Positions 7,938 through 54,481 of a stretch of 64,000 bases of DNA are shown in pieces (the first letter of the stretch is position 1; every line of letters begins with the position of its first letter). The notes beneath the pieces were generated by a model. That model was not told the DNA's origin. It saw only the letters and a program-made list of their open reading frames with translations, and ran no database searches. The DNA comes from Gallionella sp. GTDB taxonomy: Bacteria > Pseudomonadota > Gammaproteobacteria > Burkholderiales > Gallionellaceae. The DNA is taken from positions 62,001 to 126,000 of the forward strand of contig JAQTMZ010000007.1 in assembly GCA_028714075.1 (NCBI GenBank). The letters run 5' to 3'. The position numbers and the translations under genes are program-made.

Positions 7938-7996
7938 CCCTGATTTCTGTGCGGTAAAAAACAACATGGACATTGCGTATCGGTAAGGAAAATAGC

Positions 7997-10900
7997 TTGA
8001 ACGAGAAAATAAACGAGCAAGATCCGTTGCCAATAGCCGGGTGCAATGTGGCAGATGGTACGCTTGAAGAGGGCAGGCGCTTCTTCTCCACCCTGGCGCA
8101 GATCAGCCCGGTGGGGATATTCCGGACTGACGCGCAGGGTAATTGCGTGTATGTCAACGAATGCTGGTGCAAGATTACCGGCAGATTATCGGCTGATGCG
8201 CTTGGCCGGGGCTGGGCGCAAGCCGTACACCCGGATGACCGGGAACGGGTTGCGCAAGCCTGGTACACATCGGCACAGGCCCGGCAGAATTTTGTCATGG
8301 AATACCGCATCCTGCGGCAGAATGGAGCGACACGCTGGGTACTGGGTCAGGCGGCAGCCGAACGTGGTGCGGCGGGCGAAATGGCCGGCTATGTTGGCAC
8401 CATCACCGACATTACCCAGAGCAAGCAGGCCGAAGAAGAATTCCAGAAATTTTTTAATCTCATCCCCGATCTGGCATGCATCGCATCAGCCGATGGGCGT
8501 TTCCTGAGAATCAACCGCATGTGGCAGGAAACGCTCGGATTCTCGGAGCAAAAAATCCTGGCCACGCCCTTCCTCGATTTGATCCATCCCGACGACCGGG
8601 ATGCGACGATGAAGGAGGTGGAGCGGCAACTGGCCGGCGAAGCGACCATACAATTCACCAACCGCTACCGCTGCAAGGACGGCAGCTACAGATGGCTGGA
8701 ATGGAGGGCGACACCGGCTGTTGACAGGAAGCTGCTGTTCGCCTCTGCGCGAGACATCACCGAACGCAAGCGGTTGGAAGTGATAAAGCAGGAAGTGCTG
8801 GATCGCCTCCAGAAGATTTCTTCCCAAGTCCCCGGGATTGTCTACCAATTCCGCTTGCGCCCGGACGGCAGTACCTGCGTTCCCTACGCCAGCGAAGCGG
8901 CCCGCCAGATATACCGGCTCGACCCGGAGGAAATTCGCGAAGACGCAACCAAGGTATTTACCCCGGTTCACCCGGACGATCTGGAAAATTTCAAGGCATC
9001 CATTCAGGTATCGGCACAAGATTTGTTACCGTGGCAGCACGAATACCGGCTGAAGTTTGACGATGGCACGGTACGCTGGCTGTTCGGTAATGCCATTCCG
9101 CAGCGCGAAGCGGACGGATCCACGCTCTGGCACGGTTTTCTCACCGATATCACCGAGCACAAAAATAGCGAGGAGCGCCTCAAGCGAAGCGAGGAAAAGC
9201 TGCAAGCCTATCTGGATAACATTTCCGATACCATCTGGCTGATCGGTGCGGACTTGAATATGGCCTATGTCTCATCCAGTGTCACGCAGTTGCTGGGTGT
9301 TTTACCCGAGGAGTTGATCGGACGGCCAAGCGCTCTGGTTATCCACCCGGATGACATGGATGTCGTAACCAATGCGCAGCGTTATGTGGTGGAGCATCCC
9401 GGCGAACCCCATACGATCCAGTACCGGGTCAGCCACAAGGATGGCCGCTGGATTCATGTGGAGAGCAGCGGCGTAAACATGCTGGGCAACCCGGCGATCA
9501 ACGGTGTACTCGTTACCATGCGGGATATAACCGGGCACAAAAATATTGAGGATGAGCTGAAGCAAACCAAGGAAAGATATGACTTTGCCACAGCGATTGG
9601 TAAAGTCGGAACTTGGGATTGGAACCCGGCTACGGGTGATCTGATTTGGAGCAACGAGACGTTCCGGCTTCTGGGTCTCACGCCGGGTACAGTCACGCCT
9701 TCTTATGAGTTGTTTTTGGGCAAGGTGCATCCGGACGACAGGGAGTTTCTTGATAGTGCCGTTCAAGCGGCTCTGCACGACAAGAAGTCATATGCCATCG
9801 ATTGCAGGATCGTTTCCGGTAGTGGAGATGAGTTGACCTGTCATATAACCGGGGAGGTTGAATTCGATGCAAAAGATCACCCGATCCGCATGCTGGGAAC
9901 GATTCATGACATCACCGAGCGCAAGCAGAGCGAGCAGGCATTGACCGAGAGCGAGAGCCGCTTCCGCGAGATATTCAATACCGTCAGTGATGCGATTTTT
10001 ATCCATGATGCGGAAACGGGGCGCATCATCGATGTCAATCGCCGCATGTGCGAGATGTACGGTCTTACCCATGAACAAGCGCTCGCCTGCGGCGTCAACG
10101 ACCTGAGCGCCGGCACGCCGCCCTATTCGACCGCCGAGGCCCTCGAAAAAATCCACCTGGCGCACACCGATGGCCCGCAGACTTTCGACTGGCTGGCGCG
10201 CGCCCGTGATGGGCATCTCTTCTGGGTCGAGGTGAGCCTGAAATTCGCGCTCATCGGTAACCACCAGAGGATACTGGCCGTGGTGCGCGATATTTCAGAA
10301 CGCAAGCAGGCCGAAGAAGAGCTACGCATTGCCGCAACGGTATTCGAGTCTCAGGAAGGCATGATAGTCACCGATGCCCATAGCGTGATCCTGCGCGTCA
10401 ACCATGCCTTCACCGGGATCACCGGCTACACGGCAGAGGAAGCCGTCGGGCAGACCCCGCGCCTGCTCAGTTCGGGCCGCCACGATGCGGTGTTTTATGC
10501 CGCGATGTGGAAATGCATCCGGTATGCCGGAGTCTGGCAGGGTGAAATCTGGAACCGGCGCAAAAACGGCGAGGTATATCCGGAACATCTCACCATTACC
10601 GCCGTAAAGGGAAGTGCCGGCGAGGTCACCCACTATGTCGCCACGCTGCATGACATCACCGAACGCAAGATGGCGGAAGAGGAAATCAACAATCTGGCTT
10701 TTTACGACACCTTGACGCAACTGCCTAACCGCCGCATGTTAAACGACCGGATCGGGCAGGCGATAGCCGCCAGCAAGCGTAGCGGCCATTATGGCGCGCT
10801 GATGTTCCTCGATCTGGATAACTTCAAGCCGCTCAATGACACATACGGGCATGGTGTGGGTGATTTGCTGTTGATTGAGGTAGCGCATCGCCTCACCAAT

Positions 10901-11254
10901 TGCGTGCGCGAAGTGGATACCGTCGCCCGATTCGGCGGCGACGAGTTCGTGGTGATGCTCAATGAACTGGGCGAGGATAAAACCGAGTCCGCCACGCAAG
11001 CCGGCATCGTCGCGGAAAAAATCCGCATCGCTTTGGCAGAGCAGTATTTTCTGAATTACAGGCATGAAGGCGAAGCGGAAAGGACTGTCGAGCATCATTG
11101 CGCGGCAAGCATCGGTGTGGTGGTGTTCAATAGTGAAGCCGATGCGGAAGACCTCATCAAGTGGGCGGATATAGCGATGTACCAGGCGAAAGAGGGCGGG
11201 CGCAATTCGGTGCATTTCTTTGACCCGGAACCGGGCAGTTTGCCGCTTTTTTGA
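7997..11254 (+). CDS. Seven-PAS diguanylate cyclase
   Basis: Cytosolic sensor of about 1085 aa. Seven consecutive PAS/PAC units (about 28-148, 149-262, 263-390, 391-520, 521-645, 646-775 and 776-900), each ending in a DITERK-like linker, precede a GGDEF domain. The active site GGDEF is intact at 980-984 (ARFGGDEFVVML), and an RxxD inhibitory site (REVD, 971-974) lies five residues before it, predicting product inhibition. No EAL domain or transmembrane helix. The TTG at 7997 has AAGGA seven bases upstream; another TTG at 7973 is possible. The second PAS domain is strikingly similar, also in DNA, to the last PAS domain of the protein at 38494-39696. Confidence 0.92.
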   Translation: MNEKINEQDPLPIAGCNVADGTLEEGRRFFSTLAQISPVGIFRTDAQGNCVYVNECWCKITGRLSADALGRGWAQAVHPDDRERVAQAWYTSAQARQNFVMEYRILRQNGATRWVLGQAAAERGAAGEMAGYVGTITDITQSKQAEEEFQKFFNLIPDLACIASADGRFLRINRMWQETLGFSEQKILATPFLDLIHPDDRDATMKEVERQLAGEATIQFTNRYRCKDGSYRWLEWRATPAVDRKLLFASARDITERKRLEVIKQEVLDRLQKISSQVPGIVYQFRLRPDGSTCVPYASEAARQIYRLDPEEIREDATKVFTPVHPDDLENFKASIQVSAQDLLPWQHEYRLKFDDGTVRWLFGNAIPQREADGSTLWHGFLTDITEHKNSEERLKRSEEKLQAYLDNISDTIWLIGADLNMAYVSSSVTQLLGVLPEELIGRPSALVIHPDDMDVVTNAQRYVVEHPGEPHTIQYRVSHKDGRWIHVESSGVNMLGNPAINGVLVTMRDITGHKNIEDELKQTKERYDFATAIGKVGTWDWNPATGDLIWSNETFRLLGLTPGTVTPSYELFLGKVHPDDREFLDSAVQAALHDKKSYAIDCRIVSGSGDELTCHITGEVEFDAKDHPIRMLGTIHDITERKQSEQALTESESRFREIFNTVSDAIFIHDAETGRIIDVNRRMCEMYGLTHEQALACGVNDLSAGTPPYSTAEALEKIHLAHTDGPQTFDWLARARDGHLFWVEVSLKFALIGNHQRILAVVRDISERKQAEEELRIAATVFESQEGMIVTDAHSVILRVNHAFTGITGYTAEEAVGQTPRLLSSGRHDAVFYAAMWKCIRYAGVWQGEIWNRRKNGEVYPEHLTITAVKGSAGEVTHYVATLHDITERKMAEEEINNLAFYDTLTQLPNRRMLNDRIGQAIAASKRSGHYGALMFLDLDNFKPLNDTYGHGVGDLLLIEVAHRLTNCVREVDTVARFGGDEFVVMLNELGEDKTESATQAGIVAEKIRIALAEQYFLNYRHEGEAERTVEHHCAASIGVVVFNSEADAEDLIKWADIAMYQAKEGGRNSVHFFDPEPGSLPLF

Positions 11255-38493: not shown

Positions 38494-39696
38494 TTGAGCA
38501 AGAAGACAAACGGGCAAGATTCGCTACATGCAGCCACCGAGGCGCGCCAGGCCGAATTGGAGACGCAAAACGAGCAATTGCGCCAGTTGCAGGCGGTACT
38601 GGAGAAATCCCTCGCCCACTACGCGGATTTCTTTGAGTACGCCCATATCGGCTATCTTGTTCTCAACCACAAATGCATGATCGATGAAATTAACTTTACC
38701 GGTGCCGCAATGCTCGGAGTGGCGCGCAGCAAACTTATTCACCACAGCTTCAATTCTTGCGTTGCAGCCGAGGATCGCCAACGCTGGCAAAATCATTTCA
38801 TAAAAGTAATAACGTCCGACGACAAACTGACTTGCGAGGTGGTATTGCAGCACGATGGCGCTTCGCGCTTCGACGCCCAACTGGATTGCCAATGTATAAG
38901 AAAAACTGACAAGGAGCTGGCGGTGCGCGTGGCGCTGACCAACATTACCGAGCGCAAACGGATAGAAGCTGATTTGCGAGCGAGCGAAGCGAGCATGCGC
39001 GCCATTCTGGACAATTCACCCTATCTGGCCTGGCTGAAGGATTCCGAAAGCCGTTACGTCCAGGTAAACAAGAGTTATGCCGAATATGCCCGGCTGAAAG
39101 ATGCCCAGCAGGTCATTGGCAAAACCGACTTCGATCTTTGGCCCAGGGAACTGGCGGAAAAATACCGCACCGATGATGACGAGGTGATGGCCACACGCTG
39201 GCAGAAACATGTCGAGGAGCGATCACTCGACGGCGACAGGATACACTGGGTAGAAACTTTCAAGACCCCGATCATCGACGAGAACGGCAACGTGCTGGGC
39301 ACTGCCGGGGTTGCCATGGATATTACCGAGCGCAAACAGGCTGAGGAGAAATTGCAAAGATTCTTCGATCTTATTCCTGAGCTGGCGTGCATCGCATCAA
39401 CCGACGGACATTTGCTGAAAATCAACCCCGCGTGGCAGACGACGCTCGGGTACACCGAGCAGGAAATCCTCTCCACCCCTTTCCTCGATTTCATCCATCC
39501 CGACGACAGGGGCGCGACGATGAAAGAAGTGGAGCGGCAACTGATTGGCGAAGCGACCATGCGATTCACCAACCGTTATCGCCACAAAGACGGCAGTTAC
39601 CGATGGCTGGAATGGACGGCGACGTCGGACGTTGACAAGAAGCTGCTTTACGCCTCCGCCCGCGACATCACCGCACGCAAACAAGCCGGGGAGTAG
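38494..39696 (+). CDS. Three-PAS protein without output domain
   Basis: Cytosolic 400-aa protein with an N-terminal coiled coil (about 15-45), and three PAS/PAC units (about 45-155, 165-285 and 290-400). It stops right after the third PAC (ITARKQAGE) with no kinase, GGDEF or EAL domain. The last PAS strongly resembles PAS 2 of the diguanylate cyclase at 7997 (shared LIPxLACIAS, PFLDxIHPDDR, ATMKEVERQL), also at DNA level. The start is a TTG at 38494 with AAAGGAGA upstream. The sequence beyond the stop carries PAS-like fragments in other frames, so this is probably a truncated sensor. Confidence 0.8.
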   Translation: MSKKTNGQDSLHAATEARQAELETQNEQLRQLQAVLEKSLAHYADFFEYAHIGYLVLNHKCMIDEINFTGAAMLGVARSKLIHHSFNSCVAAEDRQRWQNHFIKVITSDDKLTCEVVLQHDGASRFDAQLDCQCIRKTDKELAVRVALTNITERKRIEADLRASEASMRAILDNSPYLAWLKDSESRYVQVNKSYAEYARLKDAQQVIGKTDFDLWPRELAEKYRTDDDEVMATRWQKHVEERSLDGDRIHWVETFKTPIIDENGNVLGTAGVAMDITERKQAEEKLQRFFDLIPELACIASTDGHLLKINPAWQTTLGYTEQEILSTPFLDFIHPDDRGATMKEVERQLIGEATMRFTNRYRHKDGSYRWLEWTATSDVDKKLLYASARDITARKQAGE

Positions 39697-43210: not shown

Positions 43211-43759
43211 TTATTCTTTTGCCTTTGCCACCATCACCAGCGCCGGACGCAGCACCCGGTCATTCAGCGTATAACCCTTTTGCATCACGCTGACCACGGT
43301 GTTGGCCGGCTGGTCGCTGTCCAGCATGCCGATTGCCTGGTGTTTGTGCGGATCCAGCTTCTCGCCGACCGGGTTGATCTCGCTGATGCTGAACTTCTCG
43401 AATACGCCGGATAATTGTTTGAGCGTCAGTTCCATGCCGCTCTTGAAGCTTTCGATATTCTCTGTCTTTACCACCAGACCGGCTTCCAGACTGTCTTTCA
43501 CCGCCAGCATTTCGTTGGAAAAACGCTCCACGGCAAATTTCTGTGCCTTGCTGATGTCCTCGGCCGCACGGCGGCGGATATTCTCGCCCTCGGCCTTGGC
43601 ATACATCCACGCGTCATAATGCTCCTGCGCCTTGCGCTCGGCTTCCTTGAGCATATCTTCGAGGCTGGGCATGACTTCTGGCGCATTTTCTGCGGCGGGT
43701 TCGGCGCTCGCCTGAGCCGCTTGCTGCTCAAGTTGCGGGTTGGTTTCGTTCTGTTCCAT
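43211..43759 (-). CDS. grpE: Nucleotide exchange factor GrpE
   Basis: GrpE, 182 aa, releases ADP from DnaK. Acidic/Gln-rich N-terminus, a long dimerising helix (about 35-95), then the beta domain with [42 protein letters not shown]. First gene of the heat-shock cluster, and its own sigma-32-like promoter lies upstream. Divergent from the exopolysaccharide locus across a 363-bp gap. Confidence 0.96.
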
Positions 43760-44122: not shown

Positions 44123-46387
44123 ATGAATCAAATTCAAATTGTAATGAGATTTTATTTTTGGCTGGTGATGATGGCGCTGTCAGGTCAGGCGGTCGCCGAG
44201 AAACACGAGTGGTTGGTAAAAAACCAGGTGGCTTCGCCCACGACCCGCGTGGTTGCGCTGAGCGATCTCGGCTTGACTGATCCTGTGGCATTGAATGATG
44301 GCGATACTAATCGTGAGCAGCATTTTTTCTTTTCTGTGCCGCAGGATGTGGTGCTTAAGGATGTCCGGATTGAGGTGCGCGGCGTTTACCTGCGCGCGTT
44401 TACCGGGGAGGCTACGCTGAGTTTTCTGGTGAACGGGGTGCCGGTTTCGAAGCTGTCGCTTTCCGGTAATGAAGATGAGTTTTCCCGCCCTGTTAAAGCC
44501 GATGACATCGCCTCATCGCCAGTTCGCGGGGCGCGTCCCGCCAAGGAAATTGTACTTTCCGTTCCGGTGAAGAATTTTGATGCAAAAAAAGGCTTCCTTG
44601 ATTTTGCGGTGGTGCTGAGCAGTCGGGTCAGCAAGGATGTCCGCGACACCGGGGGGGGCAACGCATTGTCTATCGACCCCAAAGAAACCGGGCTGATTTA
44701 CACTTTTGATGCCGCGTCGGTCAGGGATATTCGCTCCATGCTGGGCACCCTGTCTTTCCACCCTGTGATACTTCTGCCCGAGCGTGTATTGGGCCAATCG
44801 CAGTATGAGGCTGCGCTGCGTACGGCCTTGGCACTGTATCAAACCGGGGCACAGCCGGAATTCGTCACTATCCCGAAAGTGGGCGACACGGTTTATACCG
44901 ATGGATTGCCGGTGCCGGATGAACTGAAAGCCATGCCGCTGTTCAGTGATTTTTCTGCGGCATCTGAAAAACACACCCCGCTAAAGATTACCCGTCCGGA
45001 GCAGATTGGTGCTTGGCTGGTATTGCGTGCGCTCTCTCCGCGAGGATTGGCGCAAATCGTGCTCGATTCGGCGCGGACACGAAAATATTTGCGCGAAGCC
45101 CTCGGTCATGTTGCCGATCTCGGCCTGGAAAAACGCCTGGCATCCTGGGGAAAGATCGCGCAATTCGACCAGTGGCTTGCGCAAGATACAAGCCAAAAAG
45201 CAAATGTCCGCGTCTCGTCGCTGGCCGGACAACCGGTGTTGTTGCTGGATGAGCCCAATATGGCACAGGGCGCGGCGCTGATTGACACCATGTGGCACGA
45301 AGTGGCGAACAGCCGGGACGAATTGCTCGACAAGGCGTTGCTGTTGACCAATGACGAGCAGGATAAGACGCATTTCTATTTTGCCCAAAGCCAGTCTGTC
45401 AAATATGTCGAAAAGAATATTGAATGGACGGTTCCATTCAAACTGAGTGATTTGCCGGAAGGAAAATGGCCGGAAGAATTCGAGATAAACCTGGTGGCAT
45501 CCCCGATGGGTGACAGTGTGCAACCAGTGGCTTCGGTATTCCTGAATGACAATCTGTTGTCGGCGAGTTTTTTGCGCACCGACGGCAAGATCGAACGTGT
45601 TTCAGCGCGTATCCCGATGTACAGTATCGCGTCGAACAATTATCTGAAAGTTCAGGTGCGCCGCCGCTGCGATGATGGCAAATGCGCGGACAACATGCAG
45701 AGTTACCCGGTGCAGATGCTGCCATCCAGTTATTTGGGGCTGGCTTCGCGTAGCGATTACCTGCAATTTTTCATGTTGCCCCCCGCGTTTGGGCATGCTG
45801 GCGATGTGATACTTCCGGTTCGATATCTGGAACAGTCTGATCAAAGCCTGTCTTTTGTCAGTGCAATATTGAGCAGCCTGTCCGCCAAATCTTCCGGTAT
45901 CAATATCCATTTCAGCGACAAGCCTGAATTTTCCCCCAAGCGCACCTTTGTTTCTTTTGAGGTTGCGCCGTCTTCGGCCAATGGCTTGATCAGGAGCGGA
46001 AATGGCCAGTTAACGGTACGCGATGCCGGTGGCCGGGCTATCTTTGACGGGGCTGGCATGGGCGCGCTGGCTACGCTGCAGCTGGTTCATGCCGGTGGCC
46101 GGGCAGGCGTAGTGGTGTCTTCAGTGAGCAACCAACTGCTGCGCTTTTCCGAGCCGCTGGATATTTCACAAGGCGATTTTGCCGTGTTGGATGCCAAAGG
46201 GGTAAAGCTGAGCCTCAATCTGAACGACCCGAAAAATGAAATGCAGCTGGACGAACAAAATCGCGACATCTGGTTTTTTATTGAACGGTATCGGGGCTGG
46301 CTGATTGCGCTGGGATTGCTGTTCTTTGTGGTTGCATGCGTGTACCTCTTGCGCATGTATTTTCAACGCGGCGCTAACCGGAAATAA
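44123..46387 (+). CDS. BcsB-like periplasmic exopolysaccharide subunit
   Basis: Membrane-anchored 754-aa periplasmic protein. Signal peptide (WLVMMALSGQAVA, about residues 13-26), a long beta-rich ectodomain and one C-terminal transmembrane helix (about 724-746, LIALGLLFFVVACVYLLRMY). This is the BcsB plan (carbohydrate-binding domains, flavodoxin-like domains, tail anchor), with recognisable BcsB-like FFFSVPQDVVLKDVRIEV near the start. In cellulose systems BcsB guides the polymer into the periplasm and completes the synthase pore. It stands 6 bp before the synthase gene, so it is probably its partner. The overall similarity looks low, so BcsB-like is safer than BcsB. Confidence 0.7.
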   Translation: MNQIQIVMRFYFWLVMMALSGQAVAEKHEWLVKNQVASPTTRVVALSDLGLTDPVALNDGDTNREQHFFFSVPQDVVLKDVRIEVRGVYLRAFTGEATLSFLVNGVPVSKLSLSGNEDEFSRPVKADDIASSPVRGARPAKEIVLSVPVKNFDAKKGFLDFAVVLSSRVSKDVRDTGGGNALSIDPKETGLIYTFDAASVRDIRSMLGTLSFHPVILLPERVLGQSQYEAALRTALALYQTGAQPEFVTIPKVGDTVYTDGLPVPDELKAMPLFSDFSAASEKHTPLKITRPEQIGAWLVLRALSPRGLAQIVLDSARTRKYLREALGHVADLGLEKRLASWGKIAQFDQWLAQDTSQKANVRVSSLAGQPVLLLDEPNMAQGAALIDTMWHEVANSRDELLDKALLLTNDEQDKTHFYFAQSQSVKYVEKNIEWTVPFKLSDLPEGKWPEEFEINLVASPMGDSVQPVASVFLNDNLLSASFLRTDGKIERVSARIPMYSIASNNYLKVQVRRRCDDGKCADNMQSYPVQMLPSSYLGLASRSDYLQFFMLPPAFGHAGDVILPVRYLEQSDQSLSFVSAILSSLSAKSSGINIHFSDKPEFSPKRTFVSFEVAPSSANGLIRSGNGQLTVRDAGGRAIFDGAGMGALATLQLVHAGGRAGVVVSSVSNQLLRFSEPLDISQGDFAVLDAKGVKLSLNLNDPKNEMQLDEQNRDIWFFIERYRGWLIALGLLFFVVACVYLLRMYFQRGANRK

Positions 46388-46393
46388 GCAACG

Positions 46394-49243
46394 ATGATTA
46401 TCAGTAATGAAACCATCGCCATATACCGCGAGGTATTGGAGGTAATAGCGGCAATTGCGGCGGTGGGCGTATTGATCAGCTCATTGGATGATTTATTCAT
46501 CGATGTTTATTATTGGGTGCGCAAGATTTATCGCTGGGTAACGCTTTCATCAAAGCATAAGCCGTTGCGCGTCGAGCAGTTGCTGGAGAAGGAGGAAAGT
46601 TATCTGGCGATTATGGTGCCCGCATGGCAGGAGCATGATGTGATCGCAAAAATGGTCGAGAACACTATTGCAACCATGAACTATCAGAAGTATGTGATTT
46701 TTCTCGGCACTTACCAGAATGATGCGCAGACTACGGCTGAAGCGGATCGTATGGCACGACGCTTCCCTACCATGGTGAGGCGCGCCACGGTGTTGAACGA
46801 TGGGCCAACTTGTAAAGCGGACTGCTTAAACTGGATTGCGCAGTCGATTTTTCTTTACGAAGAGCAGCACAACATCAAGTTTGCCGGCCTGATTATCCAT
46901 GACAGCGAGGACGTCATTCACCCGCTCGAATTCCGCATGTTCAATTTCCTGGTCGGGCGGAAAGATTTGATTCAAATGCCGGTGCTTTCCCTGGAAAGAG
47001 GTTGGTGGGACTGGATCGCGGCGAGCTACATGGATGACTTTGCCGAGTGGCATGAAAAGGAAATGGTGGTGCGTGAGAGCCTCAACGGCCTGGTGCCCGG
47101 CTCCGGTGTTTCTACCTGTTATAGCCGTCGTGCCATCCAGTTGCTTGCCGACAAGAATAAAAACCAGCCCTTTAATACCGATACGCTGACCGAAGACTAC
47201 GATTTGAGTTTCCGTCTCAAGGAACTTGGCACCACCCAGGTTTTTGTGCGCTTCCCTGTGCTGCATGCGGTCAAGCGGAAATCATTTTTCACCGGCAAGG
47301 AATATCAGGTCAACGTTAACAGCGTGATTGCAACTCGCGAGTATTTTCCGAGCACCTTGCGCACCGCCTATCGCCAGCGTGCGCGCTGGATTCTGGGGGT
47401 GGCATTTCAGGGCTGGCAACAAATGGGATGGAAAGGCGGCCTCGCATCGAAATACTTGTTTTTCCGTGACCGCAAATCTTTGTGGGTGCCTTACGTCGGG
47501 TTGCTGACCTACCTGACCGCCGGCTCGTTCATGACGATTTGGTTGTTGCGTTTGATGGGTCTGGAGTACATGCGCTTTCCGGATTTTGTGGAAACGCGCA
47601 GCTGGCTTTTCTATTGCTATTTATTGAGTTTCTGGTTTTTCTTCAACCGTGTTTTTCATCGCGCTTATTTCGTATCGCTCGAACATGGCATTGTGCAGGG
47701 CTTCCTGTCCATACCGCGCATGGTCGTGGGCAGCGTAATCAATCTGGCCGCGGTTTCCCGTGCATGGAAGATTTTTGTGACGCACCTGATAACCGGCAAG
47801 CGGATCGCATGGGATAAAACCCAGCATTTCTATCCGACCGTCGAGGCCCTGAAGAAACTCCGTAAACAAACGGGTGAATTGCTGCTCAGCTGGAATCAGA
47901 TCAGCCAGGAACAGCTTGATCATGCGCTGTCCCAGCAGAAGATTACCGGTAAACGGGTCGGACGATTGCTGCTCGAACAAGGCGCTATCAGCCAGGAGAA
48001 GCTTGCCGATGCGATGGCCGACCAAACCGGGTTGCCGCGCACGGTTCTTGAACCGCAGGCTATCAAGCAGTTCTTTGGGCGGCTGCCCGGCTTTCTGGTG
48101 CAACGCCATAGCGTCATACCTTTCGCCGAAGCGCAGGATGGAACGCTGAATTTGGCAGTTTATGACGCGCTTTCAGACGATGCGTTGGCAATAATTCAGG
48201 AGGCGGTTGGTCGCCCTGTCGCACTCTTCATCGCAACCGAACAGGAGATTACCGCGGCGGTTGGCTGGTACGGCGTGGGCGGCGATACCGCCAAGCTTAA
48301 GGCCGGACCTGCCGAACGCAAGCCGCTGGGCGACTTCCTTGTCGAAGTTGGCGCAGTTACGGTGGAGGCTTTAGCCAGCAGTTTGTCGGGCTACAACAGT
48401 GAGCGCGATGGGCGAATTGGCGAATATCTGTTGGCGCGCGGAGTGATTTCCCAAGCGCAACTTGATGATGCTCTGCATCGGCAAAGCGAGCTTGCAAACG
48501 AGCTGGCAAATTTTAATCCGGCACCCTGGAATGCCGCCGTTGATGCCCTGAAAAAACTCCGTAAACAAACGGGTGAATTGCTGCTCAGCTGGAATCAGAT
48601 CAGCCAGGAACAGCTTGATCATGCGCTGTCCCAGCAGAAGATTACCGGTAAACGGGTGGGGCGATTGTTGCTCGAACAAGGCGCTATCAGCCAGGGTAAG
48701 CTTGCCGATGCGATCGCCGAACAGGCCGGATTGCCGCGCATCGTTCTGGAACCGCAGACTATCAAGCAGTTCTTCGGGCGATTGCCCGCCTTTTTGGTGC
48801 AACGTCATGGCGTCGTACCTTTCGCTGAAGCGCCGAATGGAACACTGAGTCTGGCAGTTTTTGATACGCCTTCAGATGAGGTATTGGCAGCGATTCAGAA
48901 GGCAATTGGTCATCCTGTGGCGCTCTTCATCGCAACCGAGCAGGAAATTTCTGCGGCGGTTGGCTGGTACAGCGCGGGTGACGACACGGTCAAGATCAAG
49001 GCAATGCCTGTTGCACGCAAACCGCTGGGCGACTTCCTTATCGAAATTGGTGCAGTGACGGTGGAGACTCTGGTCGGCAATTTGTCGGGCTACAATAGCG
49101 GGCGCGATGGGCAAATTGGTGCCTATCTGTTGGCGCGTGGAGTAATTTCCCAAGCGCAGCTTGATGAGGCCCTGCGCCGTCAGGGCGAGGCTTCAGGCGG
49201 GCTGGAAAATTCCAATTCAACACTCCGGAGTGCCGCACGATGA
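46394..49243 (+). CDS. nfrB: NfrB-like GT2 exopolysaccharide synthase with duplicated MshEN region
   Basis: Inner-membrane glycosyltransferase of 949 aa. TM near 11-33, then a GT2 domain with HDSED (D170-D173), TEDYD (266-270) and QRARW (328-332), the residues of processive synthases, and further helices around 360-460. The C-terminal half consists of two 233-residue copies (486-718 and 719-949). Each has four MshEN-type motifs (pattern GxxLLxxGxISxxxLxxALxxQ), which bind c-di-GMP in MshE and NfrB. E. coli NfrB is a c-di-GMP-activated polysaccharide synthase and phage N4 receptor component. Its stop overlaps nfrA (ATGA). Normal NfrB has one such region. Confidence 0.85.
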   Translation: MIISNETIAIYREVLEVIAAIAAVGVLISSLDDLFIDVYYWVRKIYRWVTLSSKHKPLRVEQLLEKEESYLAIMVPAWQEHDVIAKMVENTIATMNYQKYVIFLGTYQNDAQTTAEADRMARRFPTMVRRATVLNDGPTCKADCLNWIAQSIFLYEEQHNIKFAGLIIHDSEDVIHPLEFRMFNFLVGRKDLIQMPVLSLERGWWDWIAASYMDDFAEWHEKEMVVRESLNGLVPGSGVSTCYSRRAIQLLADKNKNQPFNTDTLTEDYDLSFRLKELGTTQVFVRFPVLHAVKRKSFFTGKEYQVNVNSVIATREYFPSTLRTAYRQRARWILGVAFQGWQQMGWKGGLASKYLFFRDRKSLWVPYVGLLTYLTAGSFMTIWLLRLMGLEYMRFPDFVETRSWLFYCYLLSFWFFFNRVFHRAYFVSLEHGIVQGFLSIPRMVVGSVINLAAVSRAWKIFVTHLITGKRIAWDKTQHFYPTVEALKKLRKQTGELLLSWNQISQEQLDHALSQQKITGKRVGRLLLEQGAISQEKLADAMADQTGLPRTVLEPQAIKQFFGRLPGFLVQRHSVIPFAEAQDGTLNLAVYDALSDDALAIIQEAVGRPVALFIATEQEITAAVGWYGVGGDTAKLKAGPAERKPLGDFLVEVGAVTVEALASSLSGYNSERDGRIGEYLLARGVISQAQLDDALHRQSELANELANFNPAPWNAAVDALKKLRKQTGELLLSWNQISQEQLDHALSQQKITGKRVGRLLLEQGAISQGKLADAIAEQAGLPRIVLEPQTIKQFFGRLPAFLVQRHGVVPFAEAPNGTLSLAVFDTPSDEVLAAIQKAIGHPVALFIATEQEISAAVGWYSAGDDTVKIKAMPVARKPLGDFLIEIGAVTVETLVGNLSGYNSGRDGQIGAYLLARGVISQAQLDEALRRQGEASGGLENSNSTLRSAAR
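47849..49243 (+). repeat. 699-bp tandem duplication in nfrB-like gene
   Basis: Copy 1 (47849-48547) and copy 2 (48548-49243) are offset by exactly 699 bp (233 codons). The first 110 bp are nearly identical as DNA, differing at about one base; later parts differ by scattered substitutions. Confidence 0.9.
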
Positions 49244-52095
49244 GATTTTCTTTCAGGCTCGGCTTGGTTTCCGCGCTGGCATTGTCGCCGTATCTTGCGC
49301 CGCTGCCTTCGGCTTATGCCGGCGAGGAGATGTTGGCGCTTCCCGAGCCCTATGTTGTCGCTAGCAACGACTTTATGGGGCAGTTTTTAGGTGTCTTTAA
49401 GGAAACCGAACAGAAGGAAGAAAAAATTCTCACCGGAAAGGCATACCGCCTGGCGGATCAGGCCTATAAAGCCCTTGCAGAGGGGAAAGTGGGCGAGGCC
49501 GAAGGATTTGTCAATGAAGCTTTGTTGCTGCGCCCGGACAGCAAACAGCTTGGCCTGATTTCCCTTGATATTCAAATGCGCAAGGGGGATTTGATCAAAG
49601 CGCGTTTGTATGCGGACAATTTGCTGGCGCGTTATCCAAATGATTCTTTGGTGCTGGCTTCAAGAGGATATATCTGTCAGAGGCAGAACCGTCATGATTT
49701 GGCGGCGCAGGACTTTGCTGCTGCGCTGCGCCAGCCCGGATTGGACGACACACAACAGCGCAATGTCAGATTATCTTTGGCCGACAGCGCCATTGCCATA
49801 AAGCGGCCGCAACAGGCATTGGATGCGCTCATTCCGCTTGTGACACCGGAGAGCTATGCCGTGCAAATCCGTATCACGCAAGCCCGGCTGATGATGGGCG
49901 AGCGCAATGCTGCGCGCGCTGCCGGGGAAAAAGCCAATGAATTGGCCGCTAATGATGCTGAACGCAAGTCCGTACAGCAATTGCTATTAAATACCGGGGT
50001 GCCGGTTGCCAAGCCATCTCCGCCGGCAGTGCCAACACCGCCTCCTGGGGCAGAGCCAAAAAATATCGCTCAGTCACCCGCTGTGAAGTCCGCCGTGGAT
50101 GAGGGCTACAAATTCCTGAAGCAAAGAAAAGACCGGCAGGCGTTGAAAGCTTTCCAGCGCGCCTTTGCCGCCGGACAGGGCAGCGCGACCGCTTATGCCG
50201 ATGCCGGCTATACCGCCAGACGTTTGGGCGAACACGATGTCGCGGCCGACTTGCTGAACAAAGCGCTAACACAAAGCCCCGGCCTGGATGCGGCACATGA
50301 ACGCGATGCCAGGCTGAATCTGGCCGATGGTGCGCTTGCCAAACAACAGCCGCAACAGGCATTGGATGTGCTGGCAACCATGCTGACAGAAGATAGTTAT
50401 GCGGTGCAGATTCGCCTCGGCCAGGCATATATGATGCTGGCGCAGCGTGATGCAGCGCGCGCTGCCGTAGAGTGGGCGGACAAGCGTGCCGCTACCGACG
50501 ACCAAAAGGCATTCGCCCAGTCGCTGTTGAAGAATATCAATACATCGGCGGGTATGGTTCATGTGGATGGCGGCTATGCAGATATTCTTAATGAAGGTTA
50601 CCGGCAACTGGGAGAGCAAAAAGATAAAGAAGCTCTGGCGGCTTTCCAGCGCGCCTTTGCCGCCGGGCAGGGCAGCGCGACCGCTTATGCCGATGCCGGC
50701 TATACCGCCAGGCGTTTGGGCGAACACGATGTCGCGGCCGACTTGCTGAACAAAGCGCTAACACAAAGCCCCGGTCTGGATGCGGCACATGAACGTGATG
50801 CCAGGCTGAATCTGGCCGATGGTGCGCTTGCCAAACAACAGCCGCAACAGGCATTGGATGTGCTGGCAACCATGCTGACAGAAGATAGTTATGCGGTGCA
50901 GATTCGCCTCGGCCAAGCATACATGATGCTGGCGCAGCGTGATGCAGCGCGCGCTGCCGTAGAGTGGGCGGACAAGCGTGCCGCTACCGATGACCAAAAG
51001 GCATTCGCCCGGTCGCTGTTGAAGAATCTCAACACATCGGTGAACATGGTTCACGCGGATGGAGGCTATGCGGACCTTAATGAAGGCTACCGGCAACTGG
51101 GAGAGCACAAAGACAAGGAAGCTCTGGCGGCTTTCCAGCGCGCCTTTGCGAATGGTTATGGCAGTGCGACCAATTATGCCGATGCCGGCTACGCGGCAAA
51201 GCGTCTGGGTGAAAACAGTATTGCTGCCGAGTTGATCGGCCATGCCCTGGAACTCAATGAGAAAAGTCCTGAATCGGCAAAACCATTCAATGATGACCAG
51301 GCTATCGGTTATCGCAGCGAGATGCTGGAGATGAGCCGTAAATGGGGTTTGACCGCCAGCCTGGTGCGGCAAAGAACCTTGCTTGCCGGACGTCAGCGGA
51401 CCAATACTATACAGGGCGGCCTGGAAGGATACTGGCAGCCGTACAACGACAATAACCGTTTTGTGCAGCTGTATGCGCGGACTTATCAAACGTTTCATGA
51501 GGGGATAAACGTAGGTACCAATGGTTCGGGAACGGCCACCAATCAGGGCGCTGCCGGCGTGCGGGTGAAACCATTCACCGACTGGGGTTTCACGGTGGGT
51601 TTGGAAAGATTGATTCATTTCGGCATGTTTTCACGCATGGATTGGCTGGTGCGCATGGGTTATTCCACCGACAGCGGTTATGAGTTGAAACCCGGCAAGG
51701 CGAGTTTGGCAGACTGGAATTTTTACGGTGAAGCCGGCTATTATTTCGAGCCGGGTTCCGGCTTGAATGCCGGCGGCGGCGGTGCCGGCAACGCCTATTA
51801 TTACCATGCTATGGAAGCAACATATGGCAAGAGCGTGCACCTTCCCAGCGTGGATGCTCATTTGACGGCCTACCCGCATCTGGTGGCGACAAACGAGACC
51901 GACAACTCCCGCTCCGCACGCGCCAGACCCTCTTCTTCGACCATCGGGCCGGGAGTCAAATTACGCTATTGGTTCTCAGAAAAAAAATATCAGGTGCCAA
52001 GCAGCGTGATTGATCTGGACATCCAGTATCGTTTCAAGGTGGATAACTCTCCACGGGGGTCGGGGCTGCTGGTGCGGGGCAATTACTGGTTTTAG
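49240..52095 (+). CDS. nfrA: NfrA-like TPR/outer-membrane secretion protein
   Basis: Exported 951-aa protein: signal peptide to about residue 27, a TPR-like repeat region (about 60-690) and a C-terminal domain (about 690-951) like that of phage N4 adsorption protein A, ending in an aromatic residue (GNYWF) as outer-membrane barrels do. By analogy with NfrA and BcsC it would export the polymer across the periplasm and outer membrane. Within the TPR region a 164-residue unit is present in two almost identical copies plus a partial third and a diverged N-terminal relative. Coupled to nfrB by ATGA overlap, 14 bases before the epimerase gene. Confidence 0.82.
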   Translation: MRFSFRLGLVSALALSPYLAPLPSAYAGEEMLALPEPYVVASNDFMGQFLGVFKETEQKEEKILTGKAYRLADQAYKALAEGKVGEAEGFVNEALLLRPDSKQLGLISLDIQMRKGDLIKARLYADNLLARYPNDSLVLASRGYICQRQNRHDLAAQDFAAALRQPGLDDTQQRNVRLSLADSAIAIKRPQQALDALIPLVTPESYAVQIRITQARLMMGERNAARAAGEKANELAANDAERKSVQQLLLNTGVPVAKPSPPAVPTPPPGAEPKNIAQSPAVKSAVDEGYKFLKQRKDRQALKAFQRAFAAGQGSATAYADAGYTARRLGEHDVAADLLNKALTQSPGLDAAHERDARLNLADGALAKQQPQQALDVLATMLTEDSYAVQIRLGQAYMMLAQRDAARAAVEWADKRAATDDQKAFAQSLLKNINTSAGMVHVDGGYADILNEGYRQLGEQKDKEALAAFQRAFAAGQGSATAYADAGYTARRLGEHDVAADLLNKALTQSPGLDAAHERDARLNLADGALAKQQPQQALDVLATMLTEDSYAVQIRLGQAYMMLAQRDAARAAVEWADKRAATDDQKAFARSLLKNLNTSVNMVHADGGYADLNEGYRQLGEHKDKEALAAFQRAFANGYGSATNYADAGYAAKRLGENSIAAELIGHALELNEKSPESAKPFNDDQAIGYRSEMLEMSRKWGLTASLVRQRTLLAGRQRTNTIQGGLEGYWQPYNDNNRFVQLYARTYQTFHEGINVGTNGSGTATNQGAAGVRVKPFTDWGFTVGLERLIHFGMFSRMDWLVRMGYSTDSGYELKPGKASLADWNFYGEAGYYFEPGSGLNAGGGGAGNAYYYHAMEATYGKSVHLPSVDAHLTAYPHLVATNETDNSRSARARPSSSTIGPGVKLRYWFSEKKYQVPSSVIDLDIQYRFKVDNSPRGSGLLVRGNYWF
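50149..51230 (+). repeat. 492/489-bp tandem repeats in nfrA-like gene
   Basis: Unit 1 (50149-50640) and unit 2 (50641-51129) differ only by scattered substitutions and one codon; a third partial unit begins at 51130 and diverges after about 35 codons. The DNA similarity suggests recent duplication or gene conversion. Confidence 0.9.
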
Positions 52096-52109
52096 TTTCA
52101 GCGGGACAT

Positions 52110-53240
52110 ATGATGCGTAAAATTATGGTGGTGATTGGAACACGCCCGGAAGCCATCAAGATGGCTCCGCTGGTGCATGAGTTGCTGGCGCAGCCGCAAC
52201 TCAAGACGTTGGTTTGTCTCACCGCACAGCATCGCCAGATGCTGGACCAGGTGCTGGAGATTTTTGGCATTACGGCCGACATCGACCTTAACCTGATGAA
52301 GCAGGGCCAGCAACTGGCCGAGCTGACCGGCAGCGTGCTGACCGGCATAGACGATGTCCTGAAAATGCATCGCCCCGATTGCGTGCTGGTGCATGGCGAC
52401 ACCACCACGGCGATGGCTGCCGGGTTGGCGGCATTCTACCGGCATATTCCAGTAGGGCATGTCGAAGCCGGGTTGCGCACCTATGATTTGCATCACCCCT
52501 GGCCGGAAGAAATGAATCGCCGCGTGATTGATGTGGTGGCCGAATACTATTTTGCGCCGACCGATGTTTCCCGTGACAACCTGCTCAAGGAGCAGGTTCC
52601 GGCAGATCGAATTTACGTGACCGGCAACACGGTTATCGACGCGCTGCTGATGACGGATGGGCGGATCAGAGCTGACCGGGAGCTGTCCGCCCGTCTTGCG
52701 GATGCGTTTCCGTATCTTGATCCGGCCAAACGACTCATCCTGGTCACCGGCCACCGCCGCGAAAACCACGGGCATGGGCTGGAGTCGATTTGCCTTGCCT
52801 TGAAACAGCTAAGTGAAAGAACCGATGTGCAGGTGGTGTACCCGGTGCATCTCAACCCCAATGTGCGCCAGGTTGTCATGGGGACATTGGAAGGCAAGCA
52901 GAATGTGCATTTGATCGAACCGCTCGATTACCTGCATTTCGTGTATCTGATGAGCCGGTCGCATATCATTTTGACCGACTCCGGCGGGATACAGGAAGAA
53001 GCGCCATCGCTGGGCAAGCCGGTACTGGTGATGCGCGAGGTAACCGAGCGACCCGAGGCCGTGGCAGCCGGCACGGTGCAATTGGTCGGCACGGATACAC
53101 AAAAAATCGTTGCCGAATGCACACGGCTGTTGGACGACGCAACTTATTACCAGAAATTTTCACAGTGCTCCAACCCTTATGGAGACGGCACCGCCAGCAG
53201 GCAGATTGTTGCTGCGCTCACCGCACGATTTGCGCATTAA
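52110..53240 (+). CDS. wecB: UDP-N-acetylglucosamine 2-epimerase (non-hydrolysing)
   Basis: WecB-type epimerase of 376 aa interconverting UDP-GlcNAc and UDP-ManNAc. Motifs: GTRPEAIKMAPL, VHGDTTTAMAAG, VGHVEAGLRTYD, PEEMNRRVIDVV, TGHRRENHG and LTDSGGIQEEAPSLGKPVLVMREVTERPE. Two adjacent ATGs (52110, 52113) are possible. It lies 14 bp after the nfrA-like gene on the same strand. In E. coli N4 infection and Nfr polysaccharide need this activity, so physical linkage here suggests UDP-ManNAc as precursor for the secreted polymer. Confidence 0.93.
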   Translation: MMRKIMVVIGTRPEAIKMAPLVHELLAQPQLKTLVCLTAQHRQMLDQVLEIFGITADIDLNLMKQGQQLAELTGSVLTGIDDVLKMHRPDCVLVHGDTTTAMAAGLAAFYRHIPVGHVEAGLRTYDLHHPWPEEMNRRVIDVVAEYYFAPTDVSRDNLLKEQVPADRIYVTGNTVIDALLMTDGRIRADRELSARLADAFPYLDPAKRLILVTGHRRENHGHGLESICLALKQLSERTDVQVVYPVHLNPNVRQVVMGTLEGKQNVHLIEPLDYLHFVYLMSRSHIILTDSGGIQEEAPSLGKPVLVMREVTERPEAVAAGTVQLVGTDTQKIVAECTRLLDDATYYQKFSQCSNPYGDGTASRQIVAALTARFAH

Positions 53241-53332
53241 GCTCTACTTGATCAGCAAAATGGTTGACGTTCAAGATAAAATGGCACCGTTATCCACATA
53301 ACGCGGCTTATCCGGCAGCGGCATTCCAGCAA

Positions 53333-54481
53333 GTGACCCAAGCCAAAAACTACCACTGGCGCATCGCCGGTTTCTATTTTTTCTATTACGCCTTCGTGGG
53401 GATGTTCGCGCCCTACTGGAGCCTGTATCTAAAATCCATTCACTTCGACGCCATCGAAATCGCCATCCTGATGTCGGTGCAGCCGGTGATGCGCATGATC
53501 GCGCCGAACTTGTGGGGTTGGCTGGCCGACCATATCGGCGAGCGGCGGCGGGTGGTGCAGATCGCCGCGACATTGAGCGCGGTGTTCTATCTGGGCGTGT
53601 TCGCCACCACCAGTTTCTGGGGCATGCTGCTGGTGCTCGGGCTGATGAGCTTCTTCTGGAGCGCATCGATACCGCTGGTCGAGGCCACCACGCTGACTTA
53701 TCTGGGCAAGCACACCGCGCATTACGGGCGCATCCGCTCGTGGGGCTCAATCGGCTTCATCGTCGCGGTGGTGGGGCTGGGCTACGCTTTCGACTATATC
53801 GCCATCGCGTGGCTGCTGTGGGCCGGAGTGGTCTGCGAACTGGGTATCCTGATCTTCTCGCGCCAGATTCCGCCCACCGAAGTGCTGGCGCACCACACCG
53901 ACAGCCATTCGATCCGCAATATCGTGTTGCAGCCGCGCGTGCTGGTGTTGTTCGGCGCGTGTTTCCTGATGTCCGTCGCGCACGGGCCTTACTACACCTT
54001 CTTCTCGATTTATCTGGTCGAGCACGGTTACGCCAAGAGCGCGGTGGGCGGGTTGTGGGCGCTCGGCGTGATCTGCGAGATCGGCGTGTTTTTCCTGATG
54101 CCGTGGCTGGTGCGGCGCTACGGTTTTACGCGTATCCTGATCGGCAGCTTCGGGCTGGCCGTGCTGCGCTTCATGCTGATCGGCTGGGGCGTGGATTTTC
54201 TGTTGCTGCTGCTGATTGCGCAAGTGCTGCACGCCGCCACCTTCGGCGCGTATCACGCCGCCTCGGTCGGGCTGGTGCATGAGTTCTTTCAGGGGCGCCA
54301 CCAGTCGAAAGGCCAGGCCATGTTCGGCAGCCTCACCTACGGCGCGGGCGGCATGCTGGGCGGGCTGGCCAGCGGCCCGATCTGGCAGCACTACGGCGCC
54401 AGCGTGCTGTATTCGTGCAGCGCGGTCATGGCGCTGCTGGGATTGTTGCTGATGGGATGGAAACTGGGGATGGCAAAATGA
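53333..54481 (+). CDS. MFS transporter, phenylpropionate-permease-like
   Basis: Twelve-helix major facilitator protein of about 382 aa, HcaT/MFS_1_like type: RIAGFYFFYYAFVGMFAPYWSLYL opens the first helix, followed by LWGWLADHIGERR (A-motif) and the second-half helices ending LLLMGWKLGM. The substrate is unknown. The start is uncertain: GTG at 53333 fits the short N-terminus of the family; a TTG at 53264 is also in frame. It overlaps the next gene by ATGA and may or may not belong to the exopolysaccharide unit. Confidence 0.8.
   Translation: MTQAKNYHWRIAGFYFFYYAFVGMFAPYWSLYLKSIHFDAIEIAILMSVQPVMRMIAPNLWGWLADHIGERRRVVQIAATLSAVFYLGVFATTSFWGMLLVLGLMSFFWSASIPLVEATTLTYLGKHTAHYGRIRSWGSIGFIVAVVGLGYAFDYIAIAWLLWAGVVCELGILIFSRQIPPTEVLAHHTDSHSIRNIVLQPRVLVLFGACFLMSVAHGPYYTFFSIYLVEHGYAKSAVGGLWALGVICEIGVFFLMPWLVRRYGFTRILIGSFGLAVLRFMLIGWGVDFLLLLLIAQVLHAATFGAYHAASVGLVHEFFQGRHQSKGQAMFGSLTYGAGGMLGGLASGPIWQHYGASVLYSCSAVMALLGLLLMGWKLGMAK

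Follow-up and report, generated by a model that had tools for sequence, protein, structure and literature searches.

In E. coli, infection by phage N4 requires NfrB, NfrA, and WecB, and the MshEN region of NfrB binds c-di-GMP with a Kd of 1.0 μM, according to the published account (PMC8669469). Genes like wecB linked to nfrB were reported in 2021 (PMC8669469), as was, in Achromobacter xylosoxidans, a cluster that unites a gene for a BcsB homolog with nfrA, nfrB, and wecB (PMC8669472). In 2025, an Acinetobacter BcsB/NfrB/WecB locus was described together with mutant phenotypes; deletion of pgrD, which encodes the BcsB homolog, or mutation of the wecB homolog blocks phage StAb3, and complementation restores infection (PMC12507263).

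Here we analyzed a locus of this already known kind in a 64,000-nucleotide stretch (the window) of a Gallionella sp. genome assembled into 27 contigs. With the E. coli N4 glycan receptor (NGR) system, nfrBA-ybcH plus wecB, it shares an NfrB with GT2 and MshEN domains, an outer-membrane protein with NfrA_C, and a predicted dependence on WecB. E. coli, the reference of the preliminary description, differs in having ybcH and no BcsB-like gene beside nfrBA; its wecB is described as lying inside the ECA operon (PMC8669472). The Achromobacter cluster has the same four kinds of genes, a likeness drawn from its published gene content. It also has O-acetyltransferase homologs, whereas Pfam found none among the proteins scanned from the operon region of the window. 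By its published description, the Acinetobacter PGR locus, pgrA-G, shares homologs of BcsB, NfrB, and WecB plus a predicted outer-membrane porin; its mutants lose the phage receptor, and its extra genes encode a protein like the C terminus of PgaB and a cyclase-like protein without a GGDEF motif (PMC12507263). With the cellulose synthase BcsAB(ZC) the window shares a BcsB-like, periplasmic, tail-anchored subunit, but its synthase has no PilZ, and NfrA and WecB stand in place of BcsC and BcsZ.

The operon and its products

The ORF coordinates and the Pfam and NCBIfam matches bear out the preliminary description of four genes on one strand, separated by a 6-bp gap, a 4-bp overlap, and a 14-bp gap. 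The features are as follows.

44123..46387, + strand: bcsB-like gene, 754 aa (ORF, translation, Pfam, profile-profile comparison)
46394..49243, + strand: nfrB-type GT2 synthase gene with a C-terminal MshEN region, 949 aa (NCBIfam, Pfam)
47840..49237, + strand: two tandem copies of a 233-codon MshEN module inside nfrB (47840-48538 and 48539-49237)
49240..52095, + strand: gene for an nfrA-type outer-membrane protein, 951 aa (Pfam NfrA_C)
50149..51132, + strand: TPR unit of 492 bp, duplicated in tandem within nfrA (repeat search)
51044..53240, + strand: putative collapsed two-copy exact repeat holding the 3' part of nfrA and wecB (overlaps with the ends of contigs C7 and C6)
52110..53240, + strand: wecB-type UDP-GlcNAc 2-epimerase gene, 376 aa (TIGR00236)

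The second protein is a GT2 synthase with C-terminal MshEN domains, the arrangement of an Nfr-type exopolysaccharide system. It scored 117.9 bits for GT2 and 73.4 bits for MshEN in Pfam and 1064.5 bits on the NCBIfam model NF012033 (cut-off, 537); its score on the NfrB equivalog NF008411, 696, was below the cut-off of 1170. Aligned with E. coli NfrB, it shows 37% identity across 710 columns, and its DSED, TED, and QxxRW residues are invariant across six aligned homologs. The copies of the duplicated module are 84% identical in DNA and 77% in protein (dN, 0.124; dS, 0.394; NG86), and the window NfrB has four MshEN matches versus one to three in the NfrBs of 80 other loci. Compared by eye with the published consensus, its second half-motifs are near consensus and its first half-motif is degenerate, without the Arg, the Leu, and the second Gly; the first half-motif of E. 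coli NfrB is imperfect too. The duplicated module is predicted to sense c-di-GMP.

In the third protein, Pfam found NfrA_C (PF13283) at 104 bits (cut-off, 25) and TPRs, the composition of an NfrA, behind a signal-peptide-like start; no other NfrA_C match occurs in the genome. Searches with phmmer for E. coli NfrA, YbcH, and BcsB among five operon-region proteins gave no match at an E value of ≤10, and so the link to NfrA rests on the NfrA_C profile. The TPR duplication includes a repeat (D1) of two 300-nt copies, 98% identical and spaced by 492 nt, and a further repeat (D3). The fourth protein, a WecB-type epimerase, which in Nfr-type systems is encoded beside nfrB or elsewhere in the genome and here next to the nfr genes, scored 415.1 bits for Epimerase_2 and 509.5 bits on the wecB model TIGR00236 (cut-off, 210.15). 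The assembly has one full wecB; elsewhere in the genome there are only an identical 41-aa piece at a contig end and one full-length match with 25% identity. In PHROGs, the epimerase matched only a family of unknown function.

BcsB proteins contain carbohydrate-binding and flavodoxin-like domains. By eye, protein 1 has a signal-peptide-like start and a C-terminal hydrophobic anchor followed by a basic tail, with a BcsB-type periplasmic region between. The BcsB model PF03170 gave 20.3 bits with protein 1, just below its 21-bit cut-off. At an E value of ≤0.001, no NCBIfam model matched protein 1, the Pfam BcsB model matched nothing in the genome, the window gene included, and phmmer matched neither protein 1 nor protein 3 to any solved structure. 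The family alignment (A3) took in the window, locus L022, and 39 of the 61 loci that carry a BcsB-like gene, leaving out near-copies and split or cut genes. The Pfam model matches 37 of its 41 members at an E value of ≤0.001. The reference alignment (A6) combined E. coli BcsB with 12 of the 15 loci that scored highest with the Pfam BcsB model, called cellulose-type from Pfam score and not from context; L134, L135, and L145 were left out because their longest ORFs seemed overlong or uncertain. Comparison of the two alignments by hhalign gave a probability of 99.2 and an E value of 1.8e-19 over 586 columns. The same family gave no significant match to the single E. coli BcsB sequence (probability, 3.9), and its profile found, among solved structures, cellulose BcsB chains only at an E value of ∼0.04. 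Judged from the profile comparison, homology to cellulose-type BcsB extends along most of the family's length, which upholds the BcsB-like character given earlier to protein 1 despite its Pfam score.

The gene set among nfrB loci

We fetched 80 nfrB loci other than the window. All four genes were present in 45, the commonest pattern, and this recurrence is more than chance. The preliminary description had seen the locus as a hybrid of two plans; that it is an unusual one is not supported by these counts or by the clusters already in print from Achromobacter and, with mutant phenotypes, Acinetobacter. In 61 loci a BcsB-like gene directly preceded nfrB, ending ≤2.5 kb from the nfrB ORF start, and a WecB match lay within the fetched stretch in 69 (45 + 19 + 5). 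In the fetched stretches of the 19 loci outside those 61, no BcsB-like gene was seen, nor did profiles of Sfb1 and cellulose BcsB find a relic of one; some lineages may thus do without this subunit. A role of E. coli YbcH as a stand-in for BcsB is not supported: the loci with YbcH-like proteins (10 at an E value of ≤1e-6, 9 from Stenotrophomonas and 1 from Azorhizobium) also have a BcsB-like gene. A diguanylate cyclase as a regular neighbor is not supported either: an undercounting search of the fetched stretches with one seed at an E value of ≤1e-8 found a GGDEF ORF in the window, in L022, and in 13 of the 80 loci, and the one in the window is ∼33 kb away. Among nfrB loci like that of the window, the four-gene form is ordinary, and E. 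coli, with no BcsB-like gene beside nfrBA and an unlinked wecB, is a reduced form.

The proposed machine and a probable second operon

Given this gene content and order, these domains, and the part-by-part homology, we consider it likely that the locus specifies an exopolysaccharide machine of the synthase-dependent Nfr type, gated by c-di-GMP and making a ManNAc-containing polymer. WecB would convert UDP-GlcNAc to UDP-ManNAc, which NfrB would polymerize at the inner membrane, probably only when c-di-GMP occupies the MshEN domains at its C terminus. In the manner of BcsB with BcsA, the BcsB-like protein, tail anchored and lying against the periplasmic side of NfrB, would guide the polymer as it grows, and NfrA would take the chain via its TPR region and export it through its outer-membrane barrel. 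By analogy with the published relatives, c-di-GMP would gate the synthase, UDP-ManNAc would be the donor, the BcsB-like subunit would be needed, and the polymer may be surface exposed and used as a phage receptor. The self-contained, c-di-GMP-controlled machine proposed earlier remains the best reading, but not as an unusual hybrid.

That the main sugar is not ManNAc, the polymer being built, for example, of GlcNAc or a hexose while a merely cotranscribed epimerase serves another envelope glycan, seems unlikely to us. The NfrB donor is indeed postulated rather than shown in the published Nfr work, as those accounts present it (PMC8669472, PMC8669469, PMC12507263), and 11 of the 80 loci (5 BcsB-NfrB-NfrA and 6 BcsB-NfrB) gave no WecB, several of their stretches being cut by contig ends. 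Yet the other 69 have one, and WecB is described as the sole ECA gene on which infection by N4 depends (PMC8669472). PF03808, the WecG family of ManNAcA transferases, had no match in the genome; the E. coli control matched. That the operon encodes a synthase of the cellulose type whose c-di-GMP receptor was exchanged, a view to which the BcsB-like subunit would lend itself, is very improbable, and we rejected a cellulose machine because the synthase is of the NfrB type and not the BcsA type. Beside its score on the NfrB-like model, its blastp match to E. coli BcsA is only a 27-residue local one in the GT2 part (E value, 0.04). The outer-membrane part is NfrA_C, the epimerase is linked, and the Pfam BcsB model falls short; with neither PilZ nor a cellulase found by Pfam in the seven proteins scanned, the Bcs set (BcsA with PilZ, BcsZ, and BcsC) is not the one encoded here.

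Most likely there is a second operon ∼98 kb away, with its own bcsB and nfrB and with a 3' part of nfrA and a wecB identical to the window copy. Contig C7 carries, just before its end, bcsB2, nfrB2, and the 5' part of nfrA2; the proteins of nfrA2 and nfrA1 are 83% identical. With the 3' end of C7 and an end of C6, at 51044-51170 and 53114-53240, the window has in each case an overlap of exactly 127 nt, not 128. Strain variation or misassembly near wecB could also produce overlapping contig ends in a genome of many contigs, where overlaps were judged from contig sequence. We think this improbable, for the contig ends fall on opposite edges of a single segment and C7 carries the other genes of an operon. 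Furthermore, a cyclase gene and next the same MFS gene (92% identical) come after locus 1 in the relative STA_17, an order that supports the path taken by the assembler.

Relation to the twisted-stalk clusters

Judged from stalk-type loci, the twisted-stalk cluster sfz/sfb (PMC8250860) resembles the window in having a BcsB-like gene followed by a GT2 gene with an MshEN domain. The first gene product is BcsB-like, with a profile E value of 1.4e-41 to the BcsB family of the window, and Sfb1-like proteins align better with that family than with cellulose BcsB; these were the Sfb1-like proteins of stalk-type loci. The N-terminal domain of Sfz2 is described as EpsE-like (PMC8250860). Its counterpart in the stalk-type loci is MshEN, by Pfam in the two loci scanned and by our own MshEN profile in four of four loci of the genus. 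The MshEN domain is N-terminal in the stalk-type GT2 and C-terminal in the window NfrB. One stalk-type GT2 is nearer BcsA than NfrB, and another is about equally close to both. After the GT2 gene, the stalk-type loci have sfb3, GH113, sfb5, and CotH genes, and none of the ten scanned matched the NfrA_C or WecB profile; the window, with NfrA and WecB after the synthase, does not have the sfb1-sfb4 order (BcsB-like, MshEN-GT2, unknown, glycoside hydrolase). A class-level search with alignment A2 matched 9 of 369 genomes, our own and 8 others. Seven of the latter were fetched; six had stalk-type clusters and one had an Nfr-type locus. The eighth was G465 (E value, 2.1e-4).

We tentatively suggest, with somewhat less than even confidence, that the Nfr-type machine and the twisted-stalk (sfz/sfb) machine of iron-oxidizing bacteria are two branches of one polymer-secretion superfamily, defined by a BcsB-like tail-anchored subunit and an MshEN-gated GT2, and that c-di-GMP may act on the synthase itself to switch stalk secretion. 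In species of the genus that lack a stalk-type cluster, the Nfr operon would then be the counterpart; in this genome it would be present twice, with a second sensing module and with the pore and the epimerase homogenized between the copies. Control of the stalk by c-di-GMP has already been proposed, from RxxD and RxxxR motifs in the published account (PMC8250860); MshEN would give that control an identified receptor domain, and the kinship described here offers a clue to the making of twisted iron stalks. The survey corrects the picture of nfrB loci derived from E. coli, and for work on N4-like phages and their hosts, the BcsB-like gene could mark the receptor system outside enterics.

The four-gene operon and its proposed function

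A listing of the ORFs bore out the coordinates (44123..53240), strand (+), and spacing given for the four genes in the preliminary description. By eye, protein 1, the BcsB-like protein (754 aa), has a signal-peptide-like start, and its C terminus runs from an amphipathic segment through a hydrophobic helix into a basic tail. It scored 20.3 bits against the Pfam BcsB family, narrowly missing the cut-off of 21 bits. Protein 2, NfrB (949 aa), contains GT2 and MshEN domains (Pfam); it scored 1064.5 bits against NF012033 (cut-off, 537) and 696, under the cut-off of 1170, against the NfrB equivalog NF008411. Pfam found TPRs and NfrA_C (104 bits) in protein 3, NfrA, and protein 4 matched wecB TIGR00236 at 509.5 bits. 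Two genes flank the operon.

43211-43759, divergent from the operon: grpE, beside the operon's 5' side
53264-54481: MFS transporter gene (MFS_1_like family), immediately 3' of wecB

The position of the nfr locus beside grpE suggests an old, fixed site. In another genome, G033, the nfr locus also adjoins a divergent grpE (L026:2829-3377), 83% identical to that of the window; the BcsB-like proteins of the two genomes share only ~36% identity. The MFS gene is possibly in one transcript with wecB. The gap between wecB and the MFS ORF start is 23 bp and holds no gene; in a relative, a gene for a cNMP-binding/GGDEF protein (L024:3554-4513, − strand) sits between the two.

To place protein 1, we aligned 41 BcsB-like relatives (from the window, from L022, the stretch of the window genome with a second locus, and from 39 of the 61 retrieved loci that carry one), 37 of which matched Pfam BcsB at an E value of ≤0.001. 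Profile-profile comparison with 13 cellulose-type BcsB proteins (12 plus that of E. coli) gave a probability of 99.2 and an E value of 1.8e-19 over 586 columns. Comparisons with the single E. coli BcsB sequence (probability, 3.9) and of the family profile with solved cellulose BcsB chains (E value, about 0.04) were weak. Judged by these alignments, protein 1 is a distant BcsB homolog along most of its length.

The function proposed earlier, a c-di-GMP-controlled machine for a ManNAc-containing exopolysaccharide, appears right by homology. WecB would supply UDP-ManNAc, NfrB would polymerize it and start export, the BcsB-like protein would guide the chain in the periplasm, and NfrA would export the polymer; c-di-GMP bound to MshEN would switch NfrB on. 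What is said here of the donor, the polymer, and the switch is drawn from published relatives. Other WecB matches in the window genome were few (an identical 41-aa fragment where a contig ends, and a full-length protein of 25% identity), and PF03808 (the WecG family) had no match there; both results fit a dedicated precursor.

Distribution of the gene set

The combination of bcsB, nfrAB, and wecB, first described as a hybrid of two plans, is not rare among the nfrB loci examined. In Achromobacter xylosoxidans, nfrA, nfrB, and wecB are described as clustered with homologs of BcsB and O-acetyltransferases (PMC8669472); in Acinetobacter, a BcsB homolog encoded at one locus together with homologs of NfrB and WecB is reported to be required for adsorption of phage StAb3 (PMC12507263); and the E. 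coli work describes binding of c-di-GMP to the MshEN region of NfrB and notes that nfrB is often linked to genes for diguanylate cyclases and to wecB-like genes (PMC8669469). The proposed combination was thus already in print.

We searched genome contigs with an NfrB alignment and examined every one of the best 80 of 273 relatives, a sample biased towards the window NfrB's own kin because it consists of the top matches. All four genes occurred together at 45 of these 80 loci (on one strand in 44 of the 45), so the epimerase and the BcsB-like gene do associate with nfrAB. NfrB, NfrA, and WecB without BcsB were found at 19 loci, BcsB and NfrB only at 6, and sets lacking only NfrA or only WecB at 5 each; absences may be overcounted, since some stretches end at contig ends, and a few WecB matches were partial (e.g., L037 and L077). 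At 61 of the 80, a BcsB-like gene lay 5' of nfrB, ending ≤2.5 kb from the nfrB ORF start. When the window and L022 were added (82 rows), the most frequent order was wecB-bcsB-nfrB-nfrA (35 rows); the window's order, bcsB-nfrB-nfrA-wecB, occurred in 6, itself included. Hosts among these best 80 matches include Ralstonia, Burkholderia, Caballeronia, Ramlibacter, Stenotrophomonas, and Gallionellaceae. On an NfrB tree of 83 sequences, rooted at the midpoint only, the BcsB label required three changes and was present in both large groups; E. coli NfrB formed a very long branch of unsure placement. The four-gene operon is a known kind of system.

A probable second operon and a doubled sensor

The window genome has a probable second operon. 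bcsB2 and nfrB2 lie ~98 kb downstream on the window's own contig (C7), and the 5' part of nfrA2 runs to the contig end. The final 127 nt of C7 match window positions 51044-51170 exactly and no further; the end of another contig, C6, likewise matches 53114-53240 over exactly 127 nt. An assembler using 127-base words leaves such ends around an exact two-copy repeat. From the overlaps and this behavior, we infer that window 51044-53240 represents two collapsed copies and that the second operon continues into C6.

L022:11490-11783, between nfrB2 and nfrA2: leftover piece of a C-terminal tail resembling that of nfrB1
L037:12104-20814: second locus of the relative STA_17, with an nfrA-like start carrying RTX calcium-binding repeats, more RTX and M23 peptidase genes, and a truncated wecB

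This remnant probably marks a past recombination event involving both operons. The BcsB2 and NfrB2 proteins are nearest those of L035, another fetched locus (60% and 80% identity, versus 39% and 58% to locus 1), whereas NfrA2 shares 83% identity with NfrA1, 80% with its STA_17 counterpart, and no more than 35 to 45% with those of L034, L035, L036, and L039. The simplest account of these identities is that locus 2 acquired nfrA, wecB, and the nfrB tail from a locus-1-like operon. In STA_17 (L033 and L037), all that the second locus has of nfrA and wecB is the truncated wecB and a short stretch like the start of nfrA, which is fused to RTX repeats. Genes for a MASE1-PAS-GGDEF cyclase and a YcgR-type PilZ protein lie 5' of the window genome's locus 2. 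Two large GGDEF ORFs (window 7973-11254 and L022:2646-5948) share 80% DNA identity over a 0.9-kb stretch, and a window PAS gene (38494-39696) shares a further 0.4-kb stretch with the L022 GGDEF gene at 78%.

The C-terminal module of the window NfrB is a tandem duplication of 233 codons (47840-48538 and 48539-49237). Its copies are 84% identical in DNA and 77% in protein, and since they differ, the duplication is not an assembly stutter; each is 81% identical to the one module that the nearest relative has. NG86 gave a dN of 0.124 and a dS of 0.394; YN00 departed from these (0.155 and 0.246), which leaves the strength of constraint uncertain. The window NfrB has four MshEN matches (two full, two partial), and the NfrBs of the 80 other loci have two (58 loci), one (20), or three (2). 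The doubled sensor is not unique, since in one of the two NfrBs with three matches, that of L047 (an Acidobacteria MAG), two of the matches are full-length and the third is weak. By eye, the first MshEN half-motif in the window reads QTG...N versus the published consensus RLG...G, and the second half-motifs are near consensus; the first half-motif of E. coli NfrB is also imperfect. NfrA contains a 492-bp TPR duplication (98% identity across a 300-nt stretch).

Kinship with twisted-stalk-type clusters

The window BcsB protein, searched against 101 genomes including its own, matched in 8, all of a single genus. Four (its own, G018, G033, and G048) carry Nfr-type loci; the others (G002, G028, G041, and G053) carry a cluster encoding, in order, a BcsB-like protein, an MshEN-GT2, an unknown protein, GH113, an unknown protein, and CotH. 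The order and kinds of genes agree with sfz1-sfz6 of the twisted iron stalk cluster as described in PMC8250860, and four sfz/sfb genes are reported from 12 Gallionellaceae genomes (PMC10734462); our use of the name sfb follows from gene order and domains.

The Nfr-type BcsB family aligned with the four Sfb1-like proteins of these clusters at a probability of 100 and an E value of 1.4e-41 over 605 columns; against cellulose-type BcsB, the E values were 1.8e-19 for the Nfr-type family and 1.1e-13 for the Sfb1-like proteins. The four scored 117 to 151 bits with the Nfr-type profile; the cellulose-type profile gave 21 bits in one and no match at an E value of ≤1e-4 in three. Six-gene stalk-type clusters (BcsB-like, MshEN-GT2, sfb3-, GH113-, sfb5-, and CotH-like) also turned up when 369 genomes of the class were searched, in six of them, each from a different family other than the window's (L153, L154, L155, L156, L158, and L159), so the cluster reaches beyond the window's family. 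The BcsB-like gene of L159 is in two pieces. These six loci scored 100 to 274 bits with the Nfr-type profile and, where matching, 33 to 58 with the cellulose-type profile. Bit scores from the two profiles are not strictly comparable, since more sequences went into the Nfr-type one. Among the four Sfb1-like proteins, one matches Pfam BcsB (E value, 3.6e-7), which speaks against drawing the division too sharply.

The synthases speak against simple common descent of the machine as a whole. The GT2 domain of one Sfb2, the stalk-type synthase (L029), matched BcsA of E. coli more closely (8.8e-13) than it did NfrB of E. coli (2.6e-4) or of the window (0.02), that of another (L031) was about equally near BcsA (1.5e-8) and E. 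coli NfrB (1.3e-8), and MshEN lies at opposite ends of the Nfr-type and stalk-type synthases. Control of stalk formation by c-di-GMP was proposed earlier, from other motifs (PMC8250860). In the one open literature library searched, no paper linked NfrB with stalks and Gallionella, or MshEN with the twisted stalk. The probable second operon, the doubled sensor, and the kinship with the stalk are worth following.
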